Shown here piece after piece: positions 47,712 through 58,551 of a DNA stretch of 58,720 bases (its first letter is position 1; the number at the start of each line of letters is the position of its first letter). The position numbers were made by a program, and so were the translations under genes. The notes under the pieces were generated by a model, which had not been told where the DNA came from, did not search any database, and was given only the letters and a program-made list of their open reading frames with translations. The stretch is from an uncultured Eubacteriales bacterium (GTDB lineage Bacteria > Bacillota > Clostridia > Christensenellales > Aristaeellaceae), in the NCBI GenBank assembly GCA_902765735.1, contig CACXBB010000012.1, positions 1 to 58,720 on the forward strand, written 5' to 3'.

Positions 47712-47739
47712 GATGATCATCGCACATGCGGCATGTGCG
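47712..47739 (+). promoter_or_regulatory. Two adjacent dyads in the leader of the 4Fe-4S protein gene
   Basis: gatgatcatc (47712-47721) is a perfect 10-bp palindrome. cgcacatgc-g-gcatgtgcg (47721-47739) is a perfect 9-1-9 inverted repeat. Both lie just after the probable start of transcription, a position suited to a repressor operator. Confidence 0.55.
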
Positions 47740-47782
47740 TGAAAGGCAGTCAATCCCATATTATGAAAGGAGCTGGAAGCAT

Positions 47783-49210
47783 ATGAGTGAGAACAATGAG
47801 AAAAAGTGGACGCTTGGCAGAAGAGACTTCCTGAAGGGCGTGGGCGCCCTGGGCATCGGCATGGGCATGATGCCGGTTTTGAGCCTGTTCGGCCTGGAGG
47901 GCAGGGCGGAGGAAGCCCAGCAGGAGGCGGAGAAGGCCGCCGACGCGGTGATCCAATCCAAGTTTGACCTGAACATGACGGCCAACGAAGAGGTCAAGAA
48001 CAGCGACAAGCTGATGGCGGAGCTCTTGAATGAGTCCGAGGTCACCAGCGACGTCACCCTGCCCGACGGCACCGTGATCCCGGCGATCTACGTGCGCATG
48101 CGCAACCGCATCAACCGCCTGGGCAAGGGCATCGGCTCCATCCCGAACGCGAACAGCTGGCAGATGATCATGTATCTGTGGAGCGAAGAGGACGCCGAGA
48201 ACTACATGAAGATGCCGCTGCACAAGCTGTTCACCGTGGCCAACTACGCCGAGGCCACCGGCTACGACGAGGAGAAGTGCTCCGAGATCCTGGAGGACCA
48301 GGCCCATCGCAACCTGATCTGGCGCGTGCGCCGCGGCGGGCTGACCTTCTTCTCCGTGATGCCCTACATCAACGGCTTCTGGGAGTTCGGCGAGCTGCAG
48401 CGCGCCTACGCGGGCGACATGGCCGCGGTGGCCGAGTTCGACAGCCAGGGCATCTCCGGCGTCGATCCGGGCGGAGAGACCGGCTTCGACACCACCTTCC
48501 CGCTGTTCCGCACCTATCCCATCAGCGCCGACGTCTGCGAGGACGGCAAGCTGCTGCCCTGGCAGGACTGGCGCGCGCTCATCAAGCGCAACAAGACCAT
48601 CACCGTCTCCCCGTGCCAGTGCCGCACCATGTGGGAGGCCCTGGGCGTGCCGTATCCGGAGGGACAGCCCATGCGTACCTGCCTGTCCCTGGGCGAGATG
48701 GCCGAGTACTTCATCGAGAACGGCATCGGCGATCAGATCACGCCGGATGAGGCCATCGAGATCGTCGAGGACATCATCAGCAAGGGCATGGTCGTGGAGT
48801 CCATCTGCGCCAAGAACGCCGACATCATCTGCTGCTGTCACTGCGAGAGCTGCGGCAACCTCATGGGCTGGCGCGGCTGCAACGGCGAGGGCGCGGCGGC
48901 ACAGTTCTTCAGCGCCTACACCCTCCAGTACGACAAGGACAAGTGCGTCAAGTGCGGCCTGTGCGCCAACATCTGTCCGATGCACTCCATCACCATGGAC
49001 GGCGAGGGCGGCACCTGCGTCATGGACAAGGCCTGCGTGCGCTGCGGCCAGTGCGTGAAGGTCTGTCCCGTGGGCGCGCGCATCCTCACGCCCACCCCGG
49101 ACTACCCCGAGCTGCCCGAGGACTACCTCGACTGCAACATCTACTTCGCCAAGGACCGCCTGCGCCGCGGCCAGATCGTGGACTTCACCGATTCCACCCT
49201 CGAGGCGTAA
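47783..49210 (+). CDS. Tat-exported iron-sulfur protein with two ferredoxin-type clusters
   Basis: A 475-residue protein. N-terminal Tat-type signal LGRRDFLKGVG (residues 10-20) with a hydrophobic core ending near GRA-EE. The middle domain is unrecognised and contains cysteine-rich words SPCQCRTMWEALG, MRTCLSLGEMAEYFI and ICCCHCESCGN. The C-terminal dicluster ferredoxin has CVKCGLCANICP and CVRCGQCVKVCP. Proteins with this SPCxCR ... CCCHC ... 2x[4Fe-4S] layout occur in anaerobes, but no reaction is established to my knowledge. Probably an extracytoplasmic electron-transfer partner of the flavin or flavodiiron proteins next to it (inference). hypA follows after 6 bp. Confidence 0.85.
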   Translation: MSENNEKKWTLGRRDFLKGVGALGIGMGMMPVLSLFGLEGRAEEAQQEAEKAADAVIQSKFDLNMTANEEVKNSDKLMAELLNESEVTSDVTLPDGTVIPAIYVRMRNRINRLGKGIGSIPNANSWQMIMYLWSEEDAENYMKMPLHKLFTVANYAEATGYDEEKCSEILEDQAHRNLIWRVRRGGLTFFSVMPYINGFWEFGELQRAYAGDMAAVAEFDSQGISGVDPGGETGFDTTFPLFRTYPISADVCEDGKLLPWQDWRALIKRNKTITVSPCQCRTMWEALGVPYPEGQPMRTCLSLGEMAEYFIENGIGDQITPDEAIEIVEDIISKGMVVESICAKNADIICCCHCESCGNLMGWRGCNGEGAAAQFFSAYTLQYDKDKCVKCGLCANICPMHSITMDGEGGTCVMDKACVRCGQCVKVCPVGARILTPTPDYPELPEDYLDCNIYFAKDRLRRGQIVDFTDSTLEA

Positions 49211-49216
49211 CGGCAC

Positions 49217-49579
49217 ATGCACGAAATGTCGTTGGTCCGCAGCGTTGTGAGGATCGTGACCGAGGAAGCCGAGGCTGCGGGCGCCGCAAAGGTGACGAAG
49301 GTGCACATCGTGCTGGGCGAGGGGCGGGACATCGTGGTGGACTACTTCGAGAGCCTGTTCCGCTTCCTCGCCCGGGGCACGGTGGCCGAGGACGCCGAGA
49401 TCGTGCTGCATCCGACGCCCTACATGGCGCGGTGTAACGCCTGCGGTGGCGAATTCCATCTGATTCCCATCGACAAGCGCACCTGGACCTGTCCGAACTG
49501 CGGCGCGTACAGGGACTACAAGCTGGTCAGCGGCATGGAATTCTACATCAGTAAGATCGAGGCCGCCCACAGCGCATGA
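49217..49579 (+). CDS. hypA: Hydrogenase nickel-insertion protein HypA
   Basis: A 120-residue protein starting MHEMSLVRSVV; the Met-His-Glu start is the nickel site. The zinc site is CNACGGEF and CPNCGAY (two CxxC pairs). Length is typical. HypA with HypB delivers nickel to [NiFe] hydrogenases (or other nickel enzymes). It is six bases after the exported Fe-S gene, and no hydrogenase subunit gene is in the window. Confidence 0.95.
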   Translation: MHEMSLVRSVVRIVTEEAEAAGAAKVTKVHIVLGEGRDIVVDYFESLFRFLARGTVAEDAEIVLHPTPYMARCNACGGEFHLIPIDKRTWTCPNCGAYRDYKLVSGMEFYISKIEAAHSA

Positions 49580-49598
49580 CTTTTCTTGCACAAACGAC

Positions 49599-49627
49599 TT
49601 GCGGGGACCGGGTGATTTCTATATAAT
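49599..49627 (+). promoter_or_regulatory. Promoter of hypB operon, flanked by an inverted repeat
   Basis: TTGCGG at 49599-49604, 17 bp, TATAAT at 49622-49627. An inverted repeat gggaccgg (49604-49611) / ccggtccc (49636-49643), extendable imperfectly to 13 bp, encloses the -10 and the start point, so a repressor or a hairpin could control it. Confidence 0.72.
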
Positions 49628-49688
49628 AGAATTATCCGGTCCCTTTGCCGGTTTCCGGGGAACATGACAGGAAGGTTAGGATGAGCCG

Positions 49689-50384
49689 ATGGACGATTCG
49701 CGCATCATTGAGATAAAACGGGACATTTTTGACCGAAACGACCGGACGGCGGACCGCTTCCGCCGCGAGCGGCAGGAGGAGGGCGCCTTCCTGCTGGACA
49801 TCATGGGCTCCCCGGGCGCCGGGAAGACCACGTTCCTGCTGGCGCTGATGGCGGCGCTCAAAAAGCGCACCGACGCCAGCATGGGGGTCATCGAGGCGGA
49901 CCTGGAGTCCGACGTGGACGCATTGAAGATCAAGGCGGCGGGCATACCCTCCGTCGAGCTGAACACCAAGGGCGTCTGCCACGTCGAAATGGGCATGATG
50001 AAGAAGGCGTTCGCTGCCTTCGGGGGCCGCAGGTTCGACTACCTGTTCCTGGAGAACATCGGCAACCTCGTGTGCCCCGCAGACTTCGACACCGGCTGCC
50101 ACAGGCGCATCATGCTGCTGTCCGTGCCGGAGGGCTGGGACAAGGTGTGCAAGTACCCGCCGATGTTCGCCGTCGTGGACGCCCTGATCGTGACAAAGTG
50201 CGATTATCTTCCTCTCAATGAGGATTTCGATATGGACGCGCTGAAGGAACACGCGCGCATACTGAACCCGAAGCTCGATATATTCGTCACCTCCGCCCGG
50301 ACGGGCGAGGGCATGGACGTGGTGGCCGAATGGCTGATCGAATGCAGGAATCAAATGCTGTCGCAGACAGGAAGGGAGAATTGA
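49689..50384 (+). CDS. hypB: Hydrogenase nickel-incorporation GTPase HypB
   Basis: A 231-residue SIMIBI GTPase. P-loop MGSPGAGKTTFL at residues 39-50, the metal and switch region ELNTKGVCHVEMGMM, FLENIGNLVCPADFDTG (conserved ENIGNLVCP) and the G4-type TKCDYLPL. The N-terminal His-rich nickel-storage stretch of some HypB proteins is missing. Works with HypA for nickel delivery in the cytosol. Has its own promoter 62 bp upstream, so it can be expressed apart from hypA. The small-protein gene starts two bases after its stop. Confidence 0.95.
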   Translation: MDDSRIIEIKRDIFDRNDRTADRFRRERQEEGAFLLDIMGSPGAGKTTFLLALMAALKKRTDASMGVIEADLESDVDALKIKAAGIPSVELNTKGVCHVEMGMMKKAFAAFGGRRFDYLFLENIGNLVCPADFDTGCHRRIMLLSVPEGWDKVCKYPPMFAVVDALIVTKCDYLPLNEDFDMDALKEHARILNPKLDIFVTSARTGEGMDVVAEWLIECRNQMLSQTGREN

Positions 50385-50386
50385 TT

Positions 50387-50647
50387 ATGTGTACAAACGG
50401 CGTGAATACCCAGCAGTTCACCCAGATGCTGGACATGGTGGACGACCACGTGGCCCTGGAATACCGGTGGACCCATCGCCTGGCCCACATCGCGGAGGAC
50501 GCCGGGTATGAGGAGACCTCCAAAAAGCTGCACGAGGCCCAGGCGCTGCTCGCCGACGTCCGTTCGCTGCTGGACGAGGCCAAGGACAGCTTCGAGAGCG
50601 AGGCCATGCGGACGGCTTCTGACAGCTCGACGGTGAAGCTGGTGTGA
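50387..50647 (+). CDS. Small helical protein of unknown function
   Basis: An 86-residue protein with gaagggag upstream, not recognised. Mostly alpha-helical with coiled-coil character (LLADVRSLLDEAKDSFESEAMR). One Cys at position 2, two His (VDDHVALEYRWTHRLAHIAED). No signal peptide. Tightly between hypB and the flavodiiron gene, thus probably part of the same process. It might be an electron-transfer adaptor or a chaperone of the exported redox protein; no evidence chooses between these. Confidence 0.7.
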   Translation: MCTNGVNTQQFTQMLDMVDDHVALEYRWTHRLAHIAEDAGYEETSKKLHEAQALLADVRSLLDEAKDSFESEAMRTASDSSTVKLV

Positions 50648-50671
50648 GTGTGAAGAATAGGAGGTATACCC

Positions 50672-52189
50672 ATGAACAACGAACTGACGAGGCGCAATTT
50701 TCTGAAGGCGGCGGCGGTGAGCACGGCGGGCGTCGCGGCGGCGGGCATCCTGGGCAACGGCGTATTCTCCGCGCGCGCGGAGGAGAGCGCCGCGGCGGCC
50801 TTTGAGGGCAAGAAGAAGTTTGCCGGCATCGGCAGCCCGCGCATGGTGACCGACGACATCGCCTATCTCGGCGTCAGCGACCGCCGGATACAGCTTTTTG
50901 AGAACGTCTACCCGATCCCCCGGGGCGTGGCGTACAATTCCTACCTGCTGCTGGACGACAAGACCGCGCTGATCGACACGGTGGACCGCTCCGTCACCGG
51001 CCAGTTCTTCGAGAACCTCGTTGCCGCGCTGGACGGGCGCACGCTGGACTACCTGATCGTCAACCACATGGAGCCGGATCACAGCTCCGCCATCTCCGAG
51101 GTGCTGGTGCGCTGGCCGGAGGCGAAGGTGGTCTGCACCGCCGCCGCGGCCGTCATACTGAACCAGTTCTTCGCCTGCGACATCTCCGACCGGTCCATAC
51201 TGGTGGGCGAGGGCGACACCCTCAATACCGGCAGGCACACGCTGACCTTCGTGCTGGCCCCGATGGTCCACTGGCCGGAGGTCATGATGACCTACGACGA
51301 CGTGTCTGGCGCGCTGTTCTCCGCCGACGCCTTCGGCAGCTTCGGCGCGCTGAACGGCAACCTGTTCGCGGACGAGGTGGACTTCGAGAACGAGTGGCTG
51401 CCCGACGCCCGGCGCTACTACTGCAACATCGTGGGCAAGTACGGCAGCCAGGTGCAGGACGTGCTGGCAAAGGCCGGCACGGTGGACATCCGCATGCTCT
51501 GTCCCACCCACGGCCCGGTCTGGCGCGACAACCTGGGCTGGATCATCGACAAGTACGTCCACTGGAGCAGCTACACCCCCGAGGACGACGCCGTGATGGT
51601 GGTCTACGGCTCCATCTACGGCGGCACGGAGAGCGCCGCCAACGCCGTGGCCGGGCTGATCTCCCGCGCGGGGGTCCAGAACGTGGCGGTGTACGACGTG
51701 TCCAAGGCCCACGTCAGCGAGCTGATCGCCGAGGCCTTCCGCGTCAGCCACATCGTGCTGGCCTCCATCACCTACAACATGGGCATCTTCACGCCGATGA
51801 AGAACTTCCTGCTGGACCTGGAGGCCCACAACCTGCAAAACCGCAGGTTCGCCATCCTCGAAAACGGCAGCTGGTCCCCCGTCGCGGGCGACCTGATGGT
51901 GGAGATCATCGACCGCCTGACGGGCTGCGGCTGCGTGGGCGAGAAGGTGACGATACTGTCCTCCCCCGACGACGGCGACGCGGAGGCCCTGACCGCCCTG
52001 GCGGAGGCCGTGGCGCAGTCGGTGCTGAACGCCGGGGACGCCGAAGCTCCCGAGGAAGCCGCCGCCCCCGCCGCCCGCTGGGTGTGCAAGGTCTGCGGCT
52101 ACGTGTATGAGGGCGACGAGCTGCCCGAGGACTTCAAGTGCCCCGTCTGCGGCGTGGACGCCAGCATGTTCGAAAAGCAGGAGGGGTGA
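50672..52189 (+). CDS. Flavodiiron protein-rubredoxin fusion with a Tat signal
   Basis: A 505-residue protein with perfect aggagg. Residues 6-14 (TRRNFLKAA) and the following Ala/Gly core form a Tat-type signal, cut near ARA-EE (about 36). The beta-lactamase diiron domain has all ligands: His132, Glu134, Asp136, His137 (NHMEPDHS), His200, Asp219, His280. The flavodoxin domain starts [12 protein letters not shown]. The C-terminal rubredoxin has [10 protein letters not shown] and CPVCG. Flavodiiron proteins reduce O2 to water or NO to N2O. They are normally cytosolic, so export is unusual. Rubredoxin fusion gives an internal electron relay. Confidence 0.93.
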
Positions 52190-52197
52190 CGTAAAGG

Positions 52198-52476
52198 GGA
52201 CGACCTCTTCCGTCAGCCCTACGGGCTGCCACCTTCCCCTGAAGGGGAAGGCACGACCTCTTCCGCCTCCTGCGGGGGCACCTTCCCCTGAAGGGGAAGG
52301 CACGACCTCTTCCGCCCCCTGCGGGGGCACCTTCCCCTGAAGGGGAAGGTACGACCTCTTCCGCCCCCTGCGGGGGCACCTTCCCCTGAAGGGGAAGGCA
52401 AAGGGAAGCGTATCCAAAAGCCTTCCCCTTCAGGGGAAGGTGGACCGCCGCAGGCGGGACGGAAGAGGTCGTCCCG
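52198..52476. repeat. Palindromic repeat with a fourfold tandem left half
   Basis: Left-half units acgacctcttccg...ccttcccctgaaggggaagg start at 52200, 52253, 52302 and 52351, a period of 49-50 bp after the first. A single inverted right half (aagccttccccttcaggggaagg ... ggaagaggtcgt) closes the block. Fills the gap between the flavodiiron gene and the signalling operon. No gene is seen. Confidence 0.9.
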
Positions 52477-52496
52477 TATCCCCCAGGAAAGCAATA

Positions 52497-52529
52497 CAAA
52501 ACCACCGTCCCGCGCGGACGGTGGTTTTG
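52497..52529. terminator. Terminator at the end of the signalling operon
   Basis: Perfect 14-bp stem caaaaccaccgtcc / ggacggtggttttg with a cgcgc loop; serves the minus-strand operon and perhaps plus-strand read-through. Confidence 0.85.
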
Positions 52530-52538
52530 CGTTGCCAT

Positions 52539-52898
52539 CTACCCCATCTTCGTATGGGAGAGCACATCCAGCGTGTCGAGGATCTCCCCGAACCAGTCCA
52601 CCTCCCCGATCCGGCCCATGACCAGCGCCCGTCCCGCCACGAACAGCGCGACCAGCAGCACGATGAGGGCGATGATGTAGATCATGACCGCGGTGAAGCC
52701 CAGTATGCTGCCGACGATGTCCCCGGGCCTGCCGGGGATGATCTTCCGGACCGGCCGGTGGATGAACTGAAACAGCGCCGGGATCGTGCAGCCAAAGGCG
52801 TCGAGGGCACGGTTGTGCAGGGGGAGGGGGCGTCCGCACTCCGGGCAGACCTTCGTGCCGGAGGGGATGTTTTTTTCGCAGTGCGGGCATTGGTTCAT
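52539..52898 (-). CDS. Zinc-ribbon membrane protein
   Basis: A 119-residue protein. N-terminal zinc ribbon CPHCEKNIPSGTKVCPECG (residues 4-22) and one long or two short membrane helices about residues 62-92 (GSILGFTAVMIYIIALIVLLVALFVAG). Final 25 residues are polar. Such zinc_ribbon_2 membrane proteins have no defined function. Last gene of the minus-strand c-di-GMP operon, 32 bp after the cyclase stop; it might be a regulator of the membrane cyclase. Confidence 0.8.
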   Translation of the reverse strand: MNQCPHCEKNIPSGTKVCPECGRPLPLHNRALDAFGCTIPALFQFIHRPVRKIIPGRPGDIVGSILGFTAVMIYIIALIVLLVALFVAGRALVMGRIGEVDWFGEILDTLDVLSHTKMG

Positions 52899-52930: not shown

Positions 52931-54109
52931 TCAGTATGCGGCCCGGGTGGTATGTCCCTGCCGCTTGCCGTGGGCCTTGTCCAGGTACAGCTTTTCATCG
53001 GCCCGCTGCATGCAGCTCTGGAGGTTGTCCTCCCCGTCCCGGAGCGCGTCGAAGCCGATGCCGATCGACACGATGTAGGGCGTTCCCTGCGCCCGGCACG
53101 CCTCCTCGATCCGGGCGCGGATCGCGGCGACCAGCGGCTCGACCTCGTCCGCGCTGTTGGGGTGGAGGATGAGTATGAACTCGTCGCCGCCGTACCGGCC
53201 CAGGAACGCGGGCGCGCTTTGGCTGTTGACCGTCTTGCGCAGCGCTTCCGCCACCAGCACCAGCGCCCGGTCGCCCTCCGCGTGGCCGTAGGTGTCGTTG
53301 ATCTTCTTGAAGTCGTTGATGTCCAGCATGATCACATAGCTCAGCCGGCCGTCCCGGTGGTTGCCGCTCTCCTGGGTGAGGTAGTGCAGCAGCTGCCGGC
53401 GGTTGTTGAGCCGCGTCAGGGGGTCGATCGAAATCTGCCCCTCCATCGACTGGATGTAGAAGATCAGCATCAGTATCGTGCAGCAGAAGCAGAATATGGG
53501 CGTCTTGGGCAGCGCGAGCAGCTGGAACACGCCGCCGAAGATCACCAGCAGCGGGAAGAGCCCCACGAACAGGTGCCTTCTCTTTTCAAACGGATTCTTC
53601 TCCGTGTGCGCCCTGCGCGAGGTGTAGACGATGACCGCCGTGATGTAGATGGACGGCACGATCACCAGGAATATGTTGTAGGCGGGCTGGAGCTCGAGGG
53701 TGTCGCTCAGCAGCAGGCGCGGGTTTATCAGATACATGGCGATCATAACCACCGTGGAGACGATGAAGGGAAAGATCACCGAGAATTTGTTGATCGCCCT
53801 CTCCCTGTGGGGGGCCTGCTCCACCACCATGACGTACTGAAGCCACAGGTAGGTGATGGCGGCCATGATGATGCAGTTTGAAAAGTTGGTCGCCACCACG
53901 GTGAAGCGGTTCCGGGGGATGATTCCCGCGATGATGGCCGCCCACAGCGCGTCGGAGATGAAGTAGAGCATGAAGGCGATCAGCGCGTGATCAAATTTGA
54001 TCTGCTTTTCCTGCCGGTCCGCGTTGAAAAGGTCCCGCAGCAGCATGATGCCGAATATGATCACGCACACCAGGTTGGCTTCCGTATAGTAGATAAAATA
54101 TCCGGACAT
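52931..54109 (-). CDS. Membrane diguanylate cyclase
   Basis: A 392-residue protein. The N-terminal 220 residues contain about six helices of a 7TM/MASE-like sensor. The C-terminal GGDEF domain starts IDPLTRLNNRRQLLHYL and has the intact active site RYGGDEFILIL. No RxxD inhibitory site just before GGDEF, so product inhibition is probably absent. Makes c-di-GMP from two GTP in response to an unknown membrane-side signal. Follows the phosphodiesterase gene by 69 bp. Confidence 0.92.
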   Translation of the reverse strand: MSGYFIYYTEANLVCVIIFGIMLLRDLFNADRQEKQIKFDHALIAFMLYFISDALWAAIIAGIIPRNRFTVVATNFSNCIIMAAITYLWLQYVMVVEQAPHRERAINKFSVIFPFIVSTVVMIAMYLINPRLLLSDTLELQPAYNIFLVIVPSIYITAVIVYTSRRAHTEKNPFEKRRHLFVGLFPLLVIFGGVFQLLALPKTPIFCFCCTILMLIFYIQSMEGQISIDPLTRLNNRRQLLHYLTQESGNHRDGRLSYVIMLDINDFKKINDTYGHAEGDRALVLVAEALRKTVNSQSAPAFLGRYGGDEFILILHPNSADEVEPLVAAIRARIEEACRAQGTPYIVSIGIGFDALRDGEDNLQSCMQRADEKLYLDKAHGKRQGHTTRAAY

Positions 54110-54178: not shown

Positions 54179-55951
54179 CTACATCTCCAGCCATTGCCGG
54201 ATCTGCCGCTCCCGCTCCTCCGGGGTCTCGCAGGCCCCGGAGCAGTGGCCCCTGCTGCGCCGGTACAGTATGGATTCCAGCGGTTCCGGCCGGTGGAAGA
54301 GATACCCCTGGGCCAGCTCACAGCCCACATCGAGCAGAAACTGCTTCTGCTCGTCGGTCTCCATGCCCTCCACCAGGGTGTGGATGCCCAGCTCCCGGGA
54401 CACGTCGATCATGGCCTTGATGATCCTGCGGTTGGCGCCGTTGTGGTCGTTCAGGTTTCGGATGAGCTCCATGTCGAACTTGATCAGGTTGAAGTCGTAG
54501 CGGCTGAACATGTTCAGGGAGGAGTAGCCGCTGCCGAAGTCGTCCAGCCACAGCTTGTAGCCGTCCCGGCGTATCCTGCGCAGCTGCTCGTGGAAGCGCT
54601 CCGTGCCGGTGGCCATGTCCTGCTCGGTGATCTCGACGATGAAGTAGTCCTTGCCGATGTATTTGGCGATGTCGTACTGGGCGTACAGGCGGTTGAGCTC
54701 CGTGGGGATATCCACATAGTCGAAGTCCTGCCCGGAGAAGTTGATCGACACGGGCAGCAGCAAAAGCCCCGCCGCCACCCGGACGGGGATGTCCCGGCAC
54801 ACCTGCTCCAGCATGTACAGGTCCAGCTTGTAGAGCAGGTGGTACTTCTCCAGCACGGGGATGAACTCGCCGGGGGAGATGATGCCCCTCACGGGGTCCA
54901 CCCAGCGTGCCAGGGCCTCCTGCACGGTGGTCTTGCCGGTCTCCAGCCGCATGATGCCCTGGTAGTAGATCTTGATCCAGCCCTGCCTGAGCGCCTTGTC
55001 GAAGTTCTCCACGATGTAGCGCTGGTTCCAGTAGAGGTTGTCGTCCTCGTGGGAATAGAAGTGGTCCGTCTCGTTCAGGTCGGTGCCGATCTGCTTGAGG
55101 GCGTTTTTCGCGTGGTCGTAGGCCGCAGTGGTGGTCATGTCCGCCTCGTAGACGCAGATGCCGACCTGTATGCCGGTGGTGTTGCCCAGGGCCTCCTTCC
55201 GGATCTGCGCGTTGACGGACCTGAGCCGCTCCGTGACGGCCTCCCGGCTGTCGAGGGCGTCAATGACGATGAAGTGCACGTCGGTGCCCCGCATGATCAG
55301 GGATTCCGGGAAGGCCTGCCGGAGCTTGCCGACGATGAGCCGTAGCAGCGCGTCCCCCTGGTCGAAGCCGTACTGGTTGTTGTAGTAGCGCATGGAGTTC
55401 ACGTCGGTGTACAGCAATACGGGCGTCCTGCCCTCCGCGCGCAGGGCGCGCGCCCGGTCCTCCGCGAATTCCCGAAAGTAGTTCAGGTTCGGCACGCCGG
55501 TCAGCGGGTCGGTGTAGAAGTGATCCTTCTGAAAGCGGCGGTAGTCCGCCGAGAGCCGCTCGGACTCGTCCTGGAACTGCGTGAGGTCCAGATAGACCAT
55601 GGACACCAGCTCCGTGCCGTCCGACATGCGCTCCCGGTGGCCGACGGAATGCACGAAGCGGTAGTCGTCGTCGTCGCCGAAGCGGGTCCGGTAGATGATG
55701 TCGTAGCCGCCCTTCTTTTCGATAAAGCCGGAGACCGCCTTCGAGACCCTGCCGACGTCGTCGGGATGGATGAAGTTCCAGGCGCTGCCCTTCTGCCGGC
55801 TCAGCAGGCGGCGGCGGTCGAGGCACAGCAGGTCGCAGAGGCCGTCCGAAACCAGGAGGGGGATGAGCGCCCCGCCGTCCTCCTGAAAAAAGGCCACGGG
55901 GAGCCTCAAAGACTCGTATGCGCTTCTGATATCATCCGGGAATCGATACAT
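54179..55951 (-). CDS. PAS-degenerate GGDEF-EAL c-di-GMP phosphodiesterase
   Basis: A 590-residue protein. I chose ATG 55951 because aggagg lies 9 bp upstream; an ATG at 56002 overlapping the previous stop (ATGA) is the alternative. PAS-like domain residues 1-145 (WNFIHPDDVGRVSKAVSGFIEKKGGYDIIYR). The GGDEF domain begins TDPLTGVPNLNYF but its active site reads RGTDVHF in place of RGGDEF, so it cannot make c-di-GMP. The EAL domain is complete: EALARWVDP, SINFSGQDF, EITEQDM, LDDFGSGYSSL, KFDMELI and VEGMETDEQ. It should hydrolyse c-di-GMP, with PAS and perhaps GTP on the dead GGDEF as control inputs. Confidence 0.92.
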   Translation of the reverse strand: MYRFPDDIRSAYESLRLPVAFFQEDGGALIPLLVSDGLCDLLCLDRRRLLSRQKGSAWNFIHPDDVGRVSKAVSGFIEKKGGYDIIYRTRFGDDDDYRFVHSVGHRERMSDGTELVSMVYLDLTQFQDESERLSADYRRFQKDHFYTDPLTGVPNLNYFREFAEDRARALRAEGRTPVLLYTDVNSMRYYNNQYGFDQGDALLRLIVGKLRQAFPESLIMRGTDVHFIVIDALDSREAVTERLRSVNAQIRKEALGNTTGIQVGICVYEADMTTTAAYDHAKNALKQIGTDLNETDHFYSHEDDNLYWNQRYIVENFDKALRQGWIKIYYQGIMRLETGKTTVQEALARWVDPVRGIISPGEFIPVLEKYHLLYKLDLYMLEQVCRDIPVRVAAGLLLLPVSINFSGQDFDYVDIPTELNRLYAQYDIAKYIGKDYFIVEITEQDMATGTERFHEQLRRIRRDGYKLWLDDFGSGYSSLNMFSRYDFNLIKFDMELIRNLNDHNGANRRIIKAMIDVSRELGIHTLVEGMETDEQKQFLLDVGCELAQGYLFHRPEPLESILYRRSRGHCSGACETPEERERQIRQWLEM

Positions 55952-55998
55952 GGCGGCAGCCTCCTGTGTATTTTCGTGAGGATCGACGGCCGGTACGG

Positions 55999-57765
55999 TC
56001 ATCTTCTCTTCTTCCCCGTCTCGCGGTAGTAGCGGTCCTTGTCCTCGTACATGCGTTTGTCGGCGATGGCCTGCATCCCGGCGAAGCCGGAATCGTAGCA
56101 GTCGCTGTAAGCGTACCCGACGGAGGCGCTGACCCCGCGCTCGGCCATCGTCCCTCTGAGATGGCGGATGCCCTCGAGGCACTCCGCCTCGGTATAGTCC
56201 TGCAATATGACGATGAACTCGTCCCCGCCGGTCCGAAAGACCCGCTTTGCCCCGAACACCGAGGACATGCAGGCGGCCACATCGACGATCAGCCGGTCGC
56301 CGGCCTCGTGGCCCAGGGTGTCGTTGGTCTCCTTCAGGCCGTTGATGTCCACGGCGATCACGGCCAGGGGCTTGTTCCGGTACTGGTTGGCCAGCACGTT
56401 CTGCAGCCCGCTGCGGTTCATGACGCCGGTGAGAGGGTCGTTCATGGACAGCCGCTCCAGCCGGATGGCCTCGTCCTTGTCGTAGTGGATGCAGCTCTGC
56501 CTGGTGTTGAAGCCGTTGTAGATGGCCACCATCATCTCGTGGCAGTTGTCGTAGCCGCAGGCCGAGCAGTTGATCTCCCGGGACTCGGGCGTGCGCTTGT
56601 GCATCTCGTTGAATATGCGGTCCGCCTCTTCCTCCGTGGGGATGCGCAGGTCGCAATCGCCGCTGCGGTTGACGAAGCGGCGCAGGTAGTGGGAGAGGGA
56701 CAGACTGCCGAACTGCCGGTTCAGCAGCGCCAGCCGTTTTTCCGGGGTGTGCCGGGGGTTCCAGGGGGAATCCGGGTCGTCGCGCTTGCTCTCGGTGCGG
56801 ATCCTCTGGATGGCGCAGAGCATGCGGTCCTCCTCGTACAGCCCGGCCTCGCCGGCGGTGCCCTCGATGCAGCCCTCCTGGCAGTTCAGCGCGTCGATCA
56901 TCAGAAAGGGGGTCCTGGACTGGGCTAACTTCCCGGCGTTTTTGTTCAGCCAGCCGTAGAGATAGGTCTTGCCCGAGACCACCCGGATCAGCGTGTCGTC
57001 CCCCAAAAACCAGCGGACGTTCTCCGCCAGCCCTCCCGGCGCGGGGTAGAAGGACCCCAGGCCGTACTCGATCTCGTCGGTGGCGTCGGGCCCGTACACG
57101 CCGTGACGGCGCACGTACTCCATCAGCTTGAGGAAGGTGACGTTGTAGTGCACGGGGCTGTCGCCATAGGCGTCCGTCTCCAGCTTCTTGCCGATGCAGG
57201 GGCCGATGAAGGCGAGCCGGTCCGCAATCCCCAGCTCCTCGCGGCAGTAGATCGCGGCGCAGACCATGGGGCTCTGAACCGGAATCAGCCGCGGTATGAG
57301 CTCCGGCAGGCAGTGCTCCACGTAGGACACGGCCACCGGGCAGGGTGTGGAGATGCCGCCGTAGAACTGCTTCTCCCGGATGTATTTCAGATAGGCCCAG
57401 GTGCAGATGTCCGCGCCGAAGGCCACGGAGACGATGCGCCGCACGCCCAGCGCCTTCAGCCCGCCCAGTATGGCGCCGTATTCCTCCGGATAGGCGGCGC
57501 GAAAGGCCGGGGCGAGCAGCAGGGTGATGGGCTCGCCCCGCTTGAGGTCGGCGAAGAAGGCGTCCGTGTCGTCGCGGTAGTCGCGGGCGCCGTGGTCGCA
57601 CAGCGCAAAGCACGCGCCGCAGGAGATGCAGCGGTCCGCGTTGATCTGCACCACGGAGGAGGCGCCGTCGGTCTGGACGTAGCTCGCCCCGGGGGAGGTG
57701 CAGACCCTGACGCACTTGTTGCAGCTGATGCAGTTTTCGTTGGTGAAGATCAGGCCGTCCTTCAT
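55999..57765 (-). CDS. [FeFe]-hydrogenase-like iron-sulfur sensor fused to a GGDEF cyclase
   Basis: A 588-residue protein with ggaggcgg upstream. Two ferredoxin motifs: C12/15/18/22 and C46/49/52/56. The hydrogenase large-subunit-like domain (about 78-360) keeps the four H-cluster Cys: C142 (STPCPV), C190 (GPCIGKKLE), C295 and C299 (NCQEGC). The proton-transfer Cys of TSCCPxW is Pro141 and the Trp is Ala145. A third Fe-S domain has C400, C403, C408 and C425 (CSACGYDNC). The C-terminal GGDEF domain (440-580) has intact GGDEF at 513-517. It probably senses H2 or redox state and makes c-di-GMP. It is second in an operon and overlaps or abuts the phosphodiesterase gene. Confidence 0.88.
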   Translation of the reverse strand: MKDGLIFTNENCISCNKCVRVCTSPGASYVQTDGASSVVQINADRCISCGACFALCDHGARDYRDDTDAFFADLKRGEPITLLLAPAFRAAYPEEYGAILGGLKALGVRRIVSVAFGADICTWAYLKYIREKQFYGGISTPCPVAVSYVEHCLPELIPRLIPVQSPMVCAAIYCREELGIADRLAFIGPCIGKKLETDAYGDSPVHYNVTFLKLMEYVRRHGVYGPDATDEIEYGLGSFYPAPGGLAENVRWFLGDDTLIRVVSGKTYLYGWLNKNAGKLAQSRTPFLMIDALNCQEGCIEGTAGEAGLYEEDRMLCAIQRIRTESKRDDPDSPWNPRHTPEKRLALLNRQFGSLSLSHYLRRFVNRSGDCDLRIPTEEEADRIFNEMHKRTPESREINCSACGYDNCHEMMVAIYNGFNTRQSCIHYDKDEAIRLERLSMNDPLTGVMNRSGLQNVLANQYRNKPLAVIAVDINGLKETNDTLGHEAGDRLIVDVAACMSSVFGAKRVFRTGGDEFIVILQDYTEAECLEGIRHLRGTMAERGVSASVGYAYSDCYDSGFAGMQAIADKRMYEDKDRYYRETGKKRR

Positions 57766-57813: not shown

Positions 57814-58488
57814 TCACAGCCCCATCTTTGCCATGATGCCGTCGGCGTCCACGCCGGGGTGCGTCACGTAGAGCCGGGCGATCTGCTCCACCAGCCCCAC
57901 GTCCCAGTCCCGGCGCGCGGCGATCTCCACGGCGGGCCGGCCCTTCTGGGTCTCCTTGATGACGGTCTCGATCTGGGCCTTGAGGTTGACCGTGTGGTTT
58001 TTGATGCGGTTCTTGTCCTCGATGTCGACGCGCATCACCTTGATTTTGCCGTCCTTCACATCGACGAGGGCCATCGTGATGGGCTGGTTGAACCGCCGCG
58101 GGCCGCAGGAGCCGGGGTTGAGGAGCACGGTGCGGCCCTGCCGCGCCTCATCGTAGCGGTGGCTGTGGCCGTAGATCACCAGATCGTAGGGGGACAGGTC
58201 GTCGGGCAGATCCCGCTTTTTGTGCGTCATGAATATGCGGATGCCGCCGAGAGTGAAGTCCAGAGACAGGGGGATGCCGTCGGCCCAGTCCCTGTCGTTG
58301 TTGCCCCGCACGACGTACACCGGGGCGACGCCGCCGAGGGTGATCAGTATGCCCTGGTTGTTCACGTCGCCGCCGTGGAGTATGGCGTCGGAGCCGGCGA
58401 GGCGGTTCAAGACCTCCTGGCGAAGGAGGCCGTGGGTGTCCGACAGGACGCCGAGGCGCATTGCACCCGGGTTGCTGTTGCCCGCCAT
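57814..58488 (-). CDS. YfcE/MJ0936-type metallophosphoesterase with C-terminal extension
   Basis: A 224-residue protein; ATG 58488 follows gggaggtgg. Calcineurin-like motifs: LGVLSDTHG (DxH), LHGGDVNN (GD), VVRGNNDRD (GNxD), TH in IFMTHKK, and YGHSHRYDE (GHxH). The core ends near residue 160; about 60 further residues (NHTVNLKAQIETVIKETQ ... DADGIMAKMGL) are not usual for the family. Such phosphodiesterases cleave small phosphodiesters of unknown identity. As first gene of the operon it could act on a nucleotide linked with c-di-GMP turnover, e.g. pGpG, but this is only inference. Confidence 0.9.
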   Translation of the reverse strand: MAGNSNPGAMRLGVLSDTHGLLRQEVLNRLAGSDAILHGGDVNNQGILITLGGVAPVYVVRGNNDRDWADGIPLSLDFTLGGIRIFMTHKKRDLPDDLSPYDLVIYGHSHRYDEARQGRTVLLNPGSCGPRRFNQPITMALVDVKDGKIKVMRVDIEDKNRIKNHTVNLKAQIETVIKETQKGRPAVEIAARRDWDVGLVEQIARLYVTHPGVDADGIMAKMGL

Positions 58489-58522
58489 CGGTCCACCTCC
58501 CAATCATTTTATCCCATTTAAC

Positions 58523-58551
58523 ATTATACCAAAAAAACAGGGTCGGTTCAA
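58523..58551 (-). promoter_or_regulatory. Promoter of the c-di-GMP operon
   Basis: Minus strand TTGAAC (58551-58546), 17 bp, TATAAT (58528-58523), 35 bp before the metallophosphoesterase start. Confidence 0.82.

Follow-up and report, generated by a model that had tools for sequence, protein, structure and literature searches.

A predicted sensory [FeFe]-hydrogenase module fused directly to a diguanylate cyclase domain in an uncultured Eubacteriales bacterium

Introduction

The window analysed here is a stretch of 58,720 nucleotides (contig CACXBB010000012.1) from an uncultured, anaerobic Eubacteriales bacterium, and the subject of this work is one of its genes, located at 55999..57765 on the minus strand, which starts with ATG and encodes a protein of 588 amino acids (open reading frame and Pfam). 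In this protein a module of the sensory [FeFe]-hydrogenase (HydS) type precedes a GGDEF diguanylate cyclase domain. The in-frame sensor-cyclase fusion is confirmed and is seen repeatedly, and it is a new output variant among sensory [FeFe]-hydrogenases. Taken as a whole, the protein is probably a cytoplasmic gas sensor, namely a group C sensory [FeFe]-hydrogenase similar to class C2 of HydDB, devoid of PAS domain and with cyclic di-GMP (c-di-GMP) as output. Papers are cited below by their PubMed Central (PMC) identifiers, each for the passages drawn upon. In those of HydDB, [FeFe] class C1 is linked to kinases, C2 to chemotaxis and C3 to phosphatases, and linkage to a diguanylate cyclase is given for [NiFe] group 2c only (PMC5037454). 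Among the open-licence PMC papers that the searches listed, none describes, by its title or in the passages drawn upon, a GGDEF domain joined to an [FeFe]-hydrogenase.

Domain organization of the fusion protein

The protein begins with a ferredoxin domain for two [4Fe-4S] clusters (57583..57741, minus strand; amino acids 9-61), where Pfam places the dicluster ferredoxin family Fer4_7 at amino acids 11-60; its cysteines C12, C15, C18, C22 and C46, C49, C52, C56 form the two ferredoxin motifs that a first-pass annotation, made from the sequence alone, had recognized. The [FeFe]-hydrogenase H-domain follows (56857..57528, minus strand; amino acids 80-303), supported by residue conservation, by the fold match and by Fe_hyd_lg_C (PF02906) at amino acids 81-302, with an E-value of 4.6e-22 and a score of 79 bits, the cut-off being 22. 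Its motifs, P141-C142-P, G188-P-C190-IGK193-KLE196 and L293-N-C295-QEGC299, contain the predicted H-cluster ligands C142, C190, C295 and C299 together with K193 and E196, all at the positions given by that annotation, which was also correct in placing Pro141 where a proton-shuttle cysteine would be expected. The C-terminal iron-sulphur (FeS) domain (56482..56574, minus strand) was matched by PF04060 at amino acids 398-426 with 22.6 bits, slightly short of the cut-off of 23. The CxxCGxxxxC motif reported earlier is present in it, although incomplete, as a fourth cysteine makes it Cx2Cx4Cx16C (C400, C403, C408, C425).

A short, presumably helical linker (56440..56490, minus strand) leads from C425 to the GGDEF domain (56035..56442, minus strand), which PF00990 matches at amino acids 442-577 with an E-value of 7.8e-21, above the cut-off; D443 is 18 residues past C425. 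The GGDEF motif had been called intact, and so it is, with the full signature R511-TGGDEF-517. At the positions where we assume the RxxD inhibitory site (I-site) to lie, the window protein has FGAK, and RxxD is found in none of the six GGDEF-only forms described below. No PAS domain appeared among the Pfam matches of the fusion protein with E-values up to 10, and phmmer returned the same families as Pfam, the C-terminus matching GGDEF proteins. The earlier proposal of a HydS-type sensor joined directly to a diguanylate cyclase is supported. Third-codon G+C amounts to 87-98% in each 100-codon block of the gene, including the block at the junction, so that the gene is a single continuous one; moreover, the same sensor-GGDEF order is found on five other contigs and therefore reflects neither an assembly join nor chance. 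A search of plasmid records gave two records with one place covering 80% of the query.

The predicted structure gives a fold match to solved [FeFe]-hydrogenases; a structure prediction, there of the H-cluster pocket, was one of the checks suggested at first pass. The AlphaFold2 model, for which 68 sequences were aligned (that of the window protein and those of 67 among the 80 relatives described below), has a mean predicted local distance difference test (pLDDT) score of 90.7 and a predicted template modelling (pTM) score of 0.75. The 50 best of the 160 Foldseek matches with E-values of at most 0.001 are all [FeFe]-hydrogenases, ranked first, with E-values from 4.4e-17 to 5e-14 and template modelling scores by query length of 0.43-0.51; the matches include the enzymes CbA5H and CpI and those of T. 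kivui, T. maritima, D. desulfuricans and A. woodii.

Conservation and the H-cluster pocket

Conservation was counted over 87 sensor rows, comprising the 80 loci, the window and loci L015, L016, L034, L038, L039 and L049. The four cysteines C142, C190, C295 and C299, residue E196 and the four cysteines of the C-terminal FeS domain are kept in 87/87 sensors, and K193 in 86. Position 141 is occupied by Pro in 83 of them and by Ser in the other four, and in none by Cys. Numbering of the enzyme CpI was transferred by means of the motifs and of an alignment with the group A and group B enzymes of the same genome, and the meaning of the CpI pocket positions was taken from PMC8163306. The M353 position is Ser in 80/87 sensors and Gly in seven, among them the window protein (Gly188), and the M497 position is Leu in all 87, window included. 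At these two positions TmHydS of T. maritima (group C) has Gly/Ser and TamHydS of T. mathranii (group D) has Ser/Leu (PMC8163306), whereas the window protein has Gly/Leu and its family mostly Ser/Leu.

Groups C and D both carry the Cx2Cx4Cx16C motif and lack C299 in the numbering of the paper, which is not residue C299 of the window protein (PMC8163306). The window protein has the PF02906 domain with four H-cluster cysteines, as in group C, and the traits common to groups C and D: the N-terminal pair of [4Fe-4S] clusters, the C-terminal Cx2Cx4Cx16C and no equivalent of C299. It has no PAS domain after the C-terminal cluster such as that of TmHydS; nor does it have the Ser/Thr of group D at the M353 position, yet Ser is found there in most of its family. 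Judged from their identity, the pocket residues alone do not assign the sensor family to group C.

Relatives and their outputs

Genome contigs of 84,980 species, one genome per species, were scanned with an alignment of seven sensors. The counts refer to the best 80 of at least 401 confirmed relatives (at least 589 pattern matches), which is a biased sample. The outputs in these 80 loci are a methyl-accepting chemotaxis protein (MCP) in 53, a hybrid histidine kinase in 13, GGDEF-EAL in nine and GGDEF alone in five. Pfam identified GGDEF in 14, HisKA in 13, EAL in nine and MCPsignal in six of 34 tails, and MCPsignal in all 46 remaining tails, which had been called MCP by motif. The outputs of L085, L086, L090, L107 and L122 were assigned from reading their tails, the MCP tail of L107, which ends at the contig edge, being judged by eye; those of six additional tree rows were assigned by Pfam. 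By the organism in the record title 61/80 loci belong to Lachnospiraceae and 75/80 to Bacillota, many of them from rumen or gut, although labels of metagenome-assembled genomes (MAGs) may be wrong.

The scan recovered five further sensor-GGDEF loci among the best 80 relatives: L051 (Blautia MAG, from sheep), L054 (Atopobiaceae MAG), L105 (Coriobacteriaceae MAG), L112 (actinobacterium MAG) and L114 (Lachnospiraceae MAG, whose contig stops after the GGDEF domain). Since three of the five are in Actinomycetota bins, it is likely that they were either mis-binned or transferred from one phylum to another. Their sensors are 54-73% identical to that of the window, and the GGDEF signature is intact in all six GGDEF-only forms, window included. 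In these six the D-x-[LM]TG motif, with which the cyclase begins, invariably comes 18 residues past the last cysteine. Among the 12 GGDEF-EAL forms this spacing amounts to 16 residues in six, to 22 in four and to 38 in one, the pattern being unmatched in one, and in 11 of 13 kinases the last cysteine is 32 residues from the phospho-acceptor motif. A short helix of fixed length, as these spacings may indicate, fits a rigid relay.

Within the genus, 27 other genomes, some incomplete, were searched, and the sensor was found only in G004 and G005 (best E-value < 1e-160); the other 25 gave nothing better than 1.5e-27, the level of matches to GGDEF proteins or ordinary hydrogenases. In G004 and G005 the sensor is fused to a degenerate GGDEF (SGDAF) plus EAL (Pfam), with EAL catalytic motifs that look intact by eye. 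At the level of the order, a sensor match with an E-value of at most 1e-30 occurs in 12 of 297 genomes, own counted; direct fusion is seen in the own genome, in G221 and in G294, and the six others whose tails were read are PAS types by eye. At the level of the class, 1e-40, at which PAS types are admitted as well, was reached in 88 of 391 genomes, own counted.

Several observations extend this picture. A more distant HydS-type sensor (L150) is followed on the same chain, a 757-amino-acid frame, by a domain that resembles by eye AAA+ proteins of the sigma-54 activator type. Some sensor-MCP proteins, L065 and L102 among them, have a receiver domain past the MCP part (Response_reg in 4/46 tails), and in L057 (8051-8953) and L058 (7427-8329) the sensor-MCP gene is followed by another match to the hydrogenase domain. 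Locus L161, considered as an output-less (group D) candidate, was rejected, as it is a C3-type frame broken by unread bases.

Phylogenetic placement

When the four output labels are placed on a quickly built maximum-likelihood tree of the 87 sensors, they require at least 7 changes, shuffled labels averaging 29; the starred branches alone force fewer (MCP 4, histidine kinase 3, GGDEF-EAL 2, GGDEF 2), and the long branches L034, L038, L114 and L120 make individual placements unsure. On this tree L050, which is a hybrid kinase and 75% identical, forms a pair with the window sensor, with a Shimodaira-Hasegawa-like approximate likelihood ratio test (SH-aLRT) support of 96. The pair adjoins L051, a GGDEF form (support 98), and a seven-row clade with support 100 holds the window, L050 and all the other GGDEF-only forms. 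A second tree, built with more care from 36 selected rows, repeated the grouping of the window, with supports of 97/92 and 100/99. There the direct-fusion family is a single 24-row clade (100/100), apart from HydS of Ruminococcus albus and other PAS types, so that membership of the window sensor in group C3 or the PAS type is rejected; by eye, L146, a member of the clade, has a PAS-like stretch ahead of its kinase. The window sensor is placed in the clade of sensor-MCPs, as would be expected of HydDB C2, in a tree that contains no HydDB-labelled C2 reference; its linkage is not that of C2, the output being GGDEF and not a methyl-accepting chemotaxis domain. A family in which outputs have been exchanged is stronger evidence of a sensory role than a single protein would be.

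H-cluster maturation and c-di-GMP readout

The genome to which the window belongs (2.92 Mb, 96.7% complete) encodes HydF, HydE and HydG, adjacent on contig C15 and all above the NCBIfam cut-offs. Three Fe_hyd_lg_C matches were found in it, one of them the window protein; the other two are [FeFe]-hydrogenases of catalytic types, a group A6-type NADH enzyme and a group B1 enzyme, both above NCBIfam cut-offs. The A6 enzyme (L001, contig C36) has TSCSPGW where we take TSCCPGW to be the usual form. In L059 (5965-11706) and L082 (366-6345) the genes of HydE, HydG and HydF adjoin the sensor-MCP gene on the same strand; in L115 (5944-11224) those of HydG and of HydF, the latter cut by the contig end, do so, the HydE match in this locus being a weak cross-match within the HydG gene.

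Matches to GGDEF above the cut-off number 48 in the genome, some of them partial. The motile/sessile switch that had been proposed as the target of the fusion protein is rejected for this genome, as no flagellin (controls positive in 4/14 known genomes) and no PilZ (controls positive in 5/14) was matched in it. The sole candidate effector seen is one MshEN domain, located on an ATPase that we take to be PilB-like; MshEN domains bind c-di-GMP. In the absence of flagellin and PilZ matches and with one MshEN domain, pili or adhesion are therefore likelier targets than swimming, and the MshEN-type ATPase suggests type IV pili. A search for c-di-GMP-I riboswitches gave no positive control and hence is uninformative.

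Gene neighbourhood

The fusion gene is the second of a run of five genes on the minus strand, bounded by a promoter-like site, TTGAAC-17-TATAAT (58523..58551, minus strand; consensus match, 3 such sites in the region vs 1.4 in shuffles), and by a terminator-like hairpin of 15 pairs (52496..52530, minus strand; consensus match, 8 sites vs 3.5). The run opens with a metallophosphoesterase gene (57814..58503, minus strand; Metallophos_2), whose product is presumably YfcE-like. The fusion gene is followed by a PAS-GGDEF-EAL gene (54179..56001, minus strand), whose ATG overlaps the fusion stop by four bases (ATGA), an alternative ATG lying near 55950. Next come a gene for a 392-amino-acid protein with a C-terminal GGDEF domain and, by eye, a membrane N-terminus (52931..54109, minus strand), and a gene for a small zinc-ribbon protein (52539..52898, minus strand), the last of the run. 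A PAS-GGDEF-EAL neighbour, with the match starting in the PAS part, was found only in L016, that is, in 1/86 loci, many of which are short (L015 ends too soon); general conservation of this downstream gene was rejected on that count, several loci ending too early. The first-pass annotation had seen the link from H2 or redox state to c-di-GMP as contained in one polypeptide. The single fused chain stands, but the statement has to be qualified, as diguanylate cyclases act as dimers and as the overlapping PAS-GGDEF-EAL protein may counteract or modulate the fusion protein.

Further from the run, the window contains on the plus strand (47726-52189) genes for a Fer4 protein, for HypA, for a HypB-like GTPase and for a protein of flavodiiron-rubredoxin-like type whose signal resembles that of twin-arginine translocation (TAT), which places [NiFe]-type maturation genes about 4-8 kb away from the [FeFe] sensor. 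Four 49-base tandem copies (92% matches) occupy 52200-52400, a place flanked by the flavodiiron-rubredoxin gene on one side and by the run's terminator on the other. Rfam detected only two tRNAs in the window.

Proposed mechanism and alternatives

In the model that we propose, the N-terminal module, formed by the two [4Fe-4S] clusters, the H-domain and the Cx2Cx4Cx16C domain, would carry an H-cluster matured by HydE, HydF and HydG. Lacking the proton-shuttle cysteine of group A, this cluster would bind H2 or turn it over slowly rather than sustain fast catalysis. When the cluster changes its state, the C-terminal FeS domain would pack differently, and this difference would be transmitted through the short helix of fixed length into the GGDEF domain, so that two GGDEF domains would meet differently and the rate of c-di-GMP synthesis would be modified. 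The likely target, reached by way of the MshEN-type ATPase, would be type IV pili and not flagella. We infer the holo H-cluster, H2 as the ligand, the conformational relay and the sign of the response. In TamHydS, H2 induces a change of secondary structure (PMC13104023).

Several points weigh against this proposal. The sensory role of group C is called putative (PMC8924675), and in the literature found there is no experiment on the fusion protein or on any direct-fusion member. The H-cluster itself is not visible in a sequence and is here a prediction; identity to the solved enzymes is 15-22% among the 50 best Foldseek matches, and the pocket is not clearly that of group C, the family mostly having Ser/Leu as group D TamHydS does. 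The ferredoxin cysteines, one kept in 86/87 sensors and all others in 87/87, are conserved partly by construction, one of the two search patterns having been derived from them. Maturase genes are neighbours in only 3/86 loci, none of them a GGDEF form. The lowest pLDDT blocks of the model (56-74) are at residues 431-460, which comprise the helix and the first part of the GGDEF domain that it enters, exactly on the path of the proposed signal; therefore, the model is uncertain in how it places the domains relative to one another. Finally, the C-terminal cluster of TamHydS is not reduced by H2 (PMC13104023), which makes it unlikely that the output is reached through a plain redox wire; we favour a conformational relay.

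It is possible, although we hold it to be unlikely, that the protein senses the reduction state of ferredoxin or NADH and not H2, with reduced ferredoxin feeding the N-terminal clusters and the H-domain only storing or reporting electrons. The two intact ferredoxin motifs would suit such a function, a cell with NADH-type and group B hydrogenases of its own should see H2 and reduced ferredoxin increase in parallel, and photoreduction, like H2, changes the structure of TamHydS (PMC13104023). However, the invariant H-cluster ligands, with E196 in every sensor and K193 in all but one, and the HydE, HydG and HydF genes adjoining some members would be costly to maintain if only the redox state of [4Fe-4S] clusters were read.

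A quite improbable arrangement is that the H-domain stays unmatured with a [4Fe-4S] cluster only, as in Nar1-type relatives, and reports FeS status or oxygen damage. An H-cluster cannot be deduced with certainty from sequence, the proton-shuttle cysteine has been lost, and the M353 and M497 positions are changed; nevertheless, K193 and E196 are retained, the maturases are encoded in the genome and adjacent to the sensor gene in three relatives, and TamHydS, similarly changed, accepts the diiron site (PMC8163306). That the GGDEF domain is a regulatory domain for GTP binding or protein contact, acting on the overlapping PAS-GGDEF-EAL protein with no working cyclase, would agree with the overlap of the fusion stop with the EAL-gene start, the similar neighbour in L016 and the same-genus relatives with SGDAF plus EAL on one chain, but is very improbable given the intact signature of all GGDEF-only forms.

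Comparison with known systems and implications

Taking the fusion protein as an H2 sensor with c-di-GMP output, its closest counterpart is the putative chemotactic class C2 of HydDB, with which it shares the direct sensor-output fusion, its nearest rows outside the GGDEF set being sensor-MCP and sensor-kinase proteins; C2, however, is described through methyl-accepting chemotaxis proteins (PMC5037454). TmHydS and TamHydS have the same pair of [4Fe-4S] clusters, H-domain and Cx2Cx4Cx16C motif and likewise no C299 equivalent, but TmHydS has a PAS domain, and for TamHydS neither PAS nor output domain is described in the passages drawn upon (PMC8163306). The sensory hydrogenase of R. albus (C3 type) shares the C-terminal FeS motif and differs in having a PAS domain (PMC6776011), a separate SpoIIE phosphatase gene, a separate clade and an L1 motif that keeps SCC; from its adhE and SpoIIE neighbours we infer that the locus compared is the published one (PMC6776011). 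The putative [NiFe] group 2c follows the same proposed logic from H2 to c-di-GMP, with another metal centre and a cyclase that HydDB describes as linked (PMC5037454).

We give an even chance to the wider proposal that these proteins represent a portable H2-sensing cassette, in which a mostly PAS-less H-cluster sensor with a short helix has been plugged into MCPs, hybrid kinases, diguanylate cyclases or c-di-GMP phosphodiesterases. If so, anaerobes of gut and rumen would turn the H2 level directly into movement direction, phosphorelay or c-di-GMP, and within one genus the sensor would raise c-di-GMP in one species, through GGDEF, and lower it in others, through EAL. In the literature, H2 sensing by group C and D [FeFe]-hydrogenases and the route by which a signal would leave their H-cluster are still unsettled (PMC13104023, PMC8924675). 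An enzyme output on the chain of the sensor makes H2 sensing testable in a single purified protein, and four natural kinds of output on one sensor type permit domain-swap tests. A rumen study reports that FeFe C2 genes gain abundance when methanogenesis is inhibited (PMC12918512); the reading proposed here, if true, would tie the H2 partial pressure of gut and rumen to bacterial c-di-GMP.
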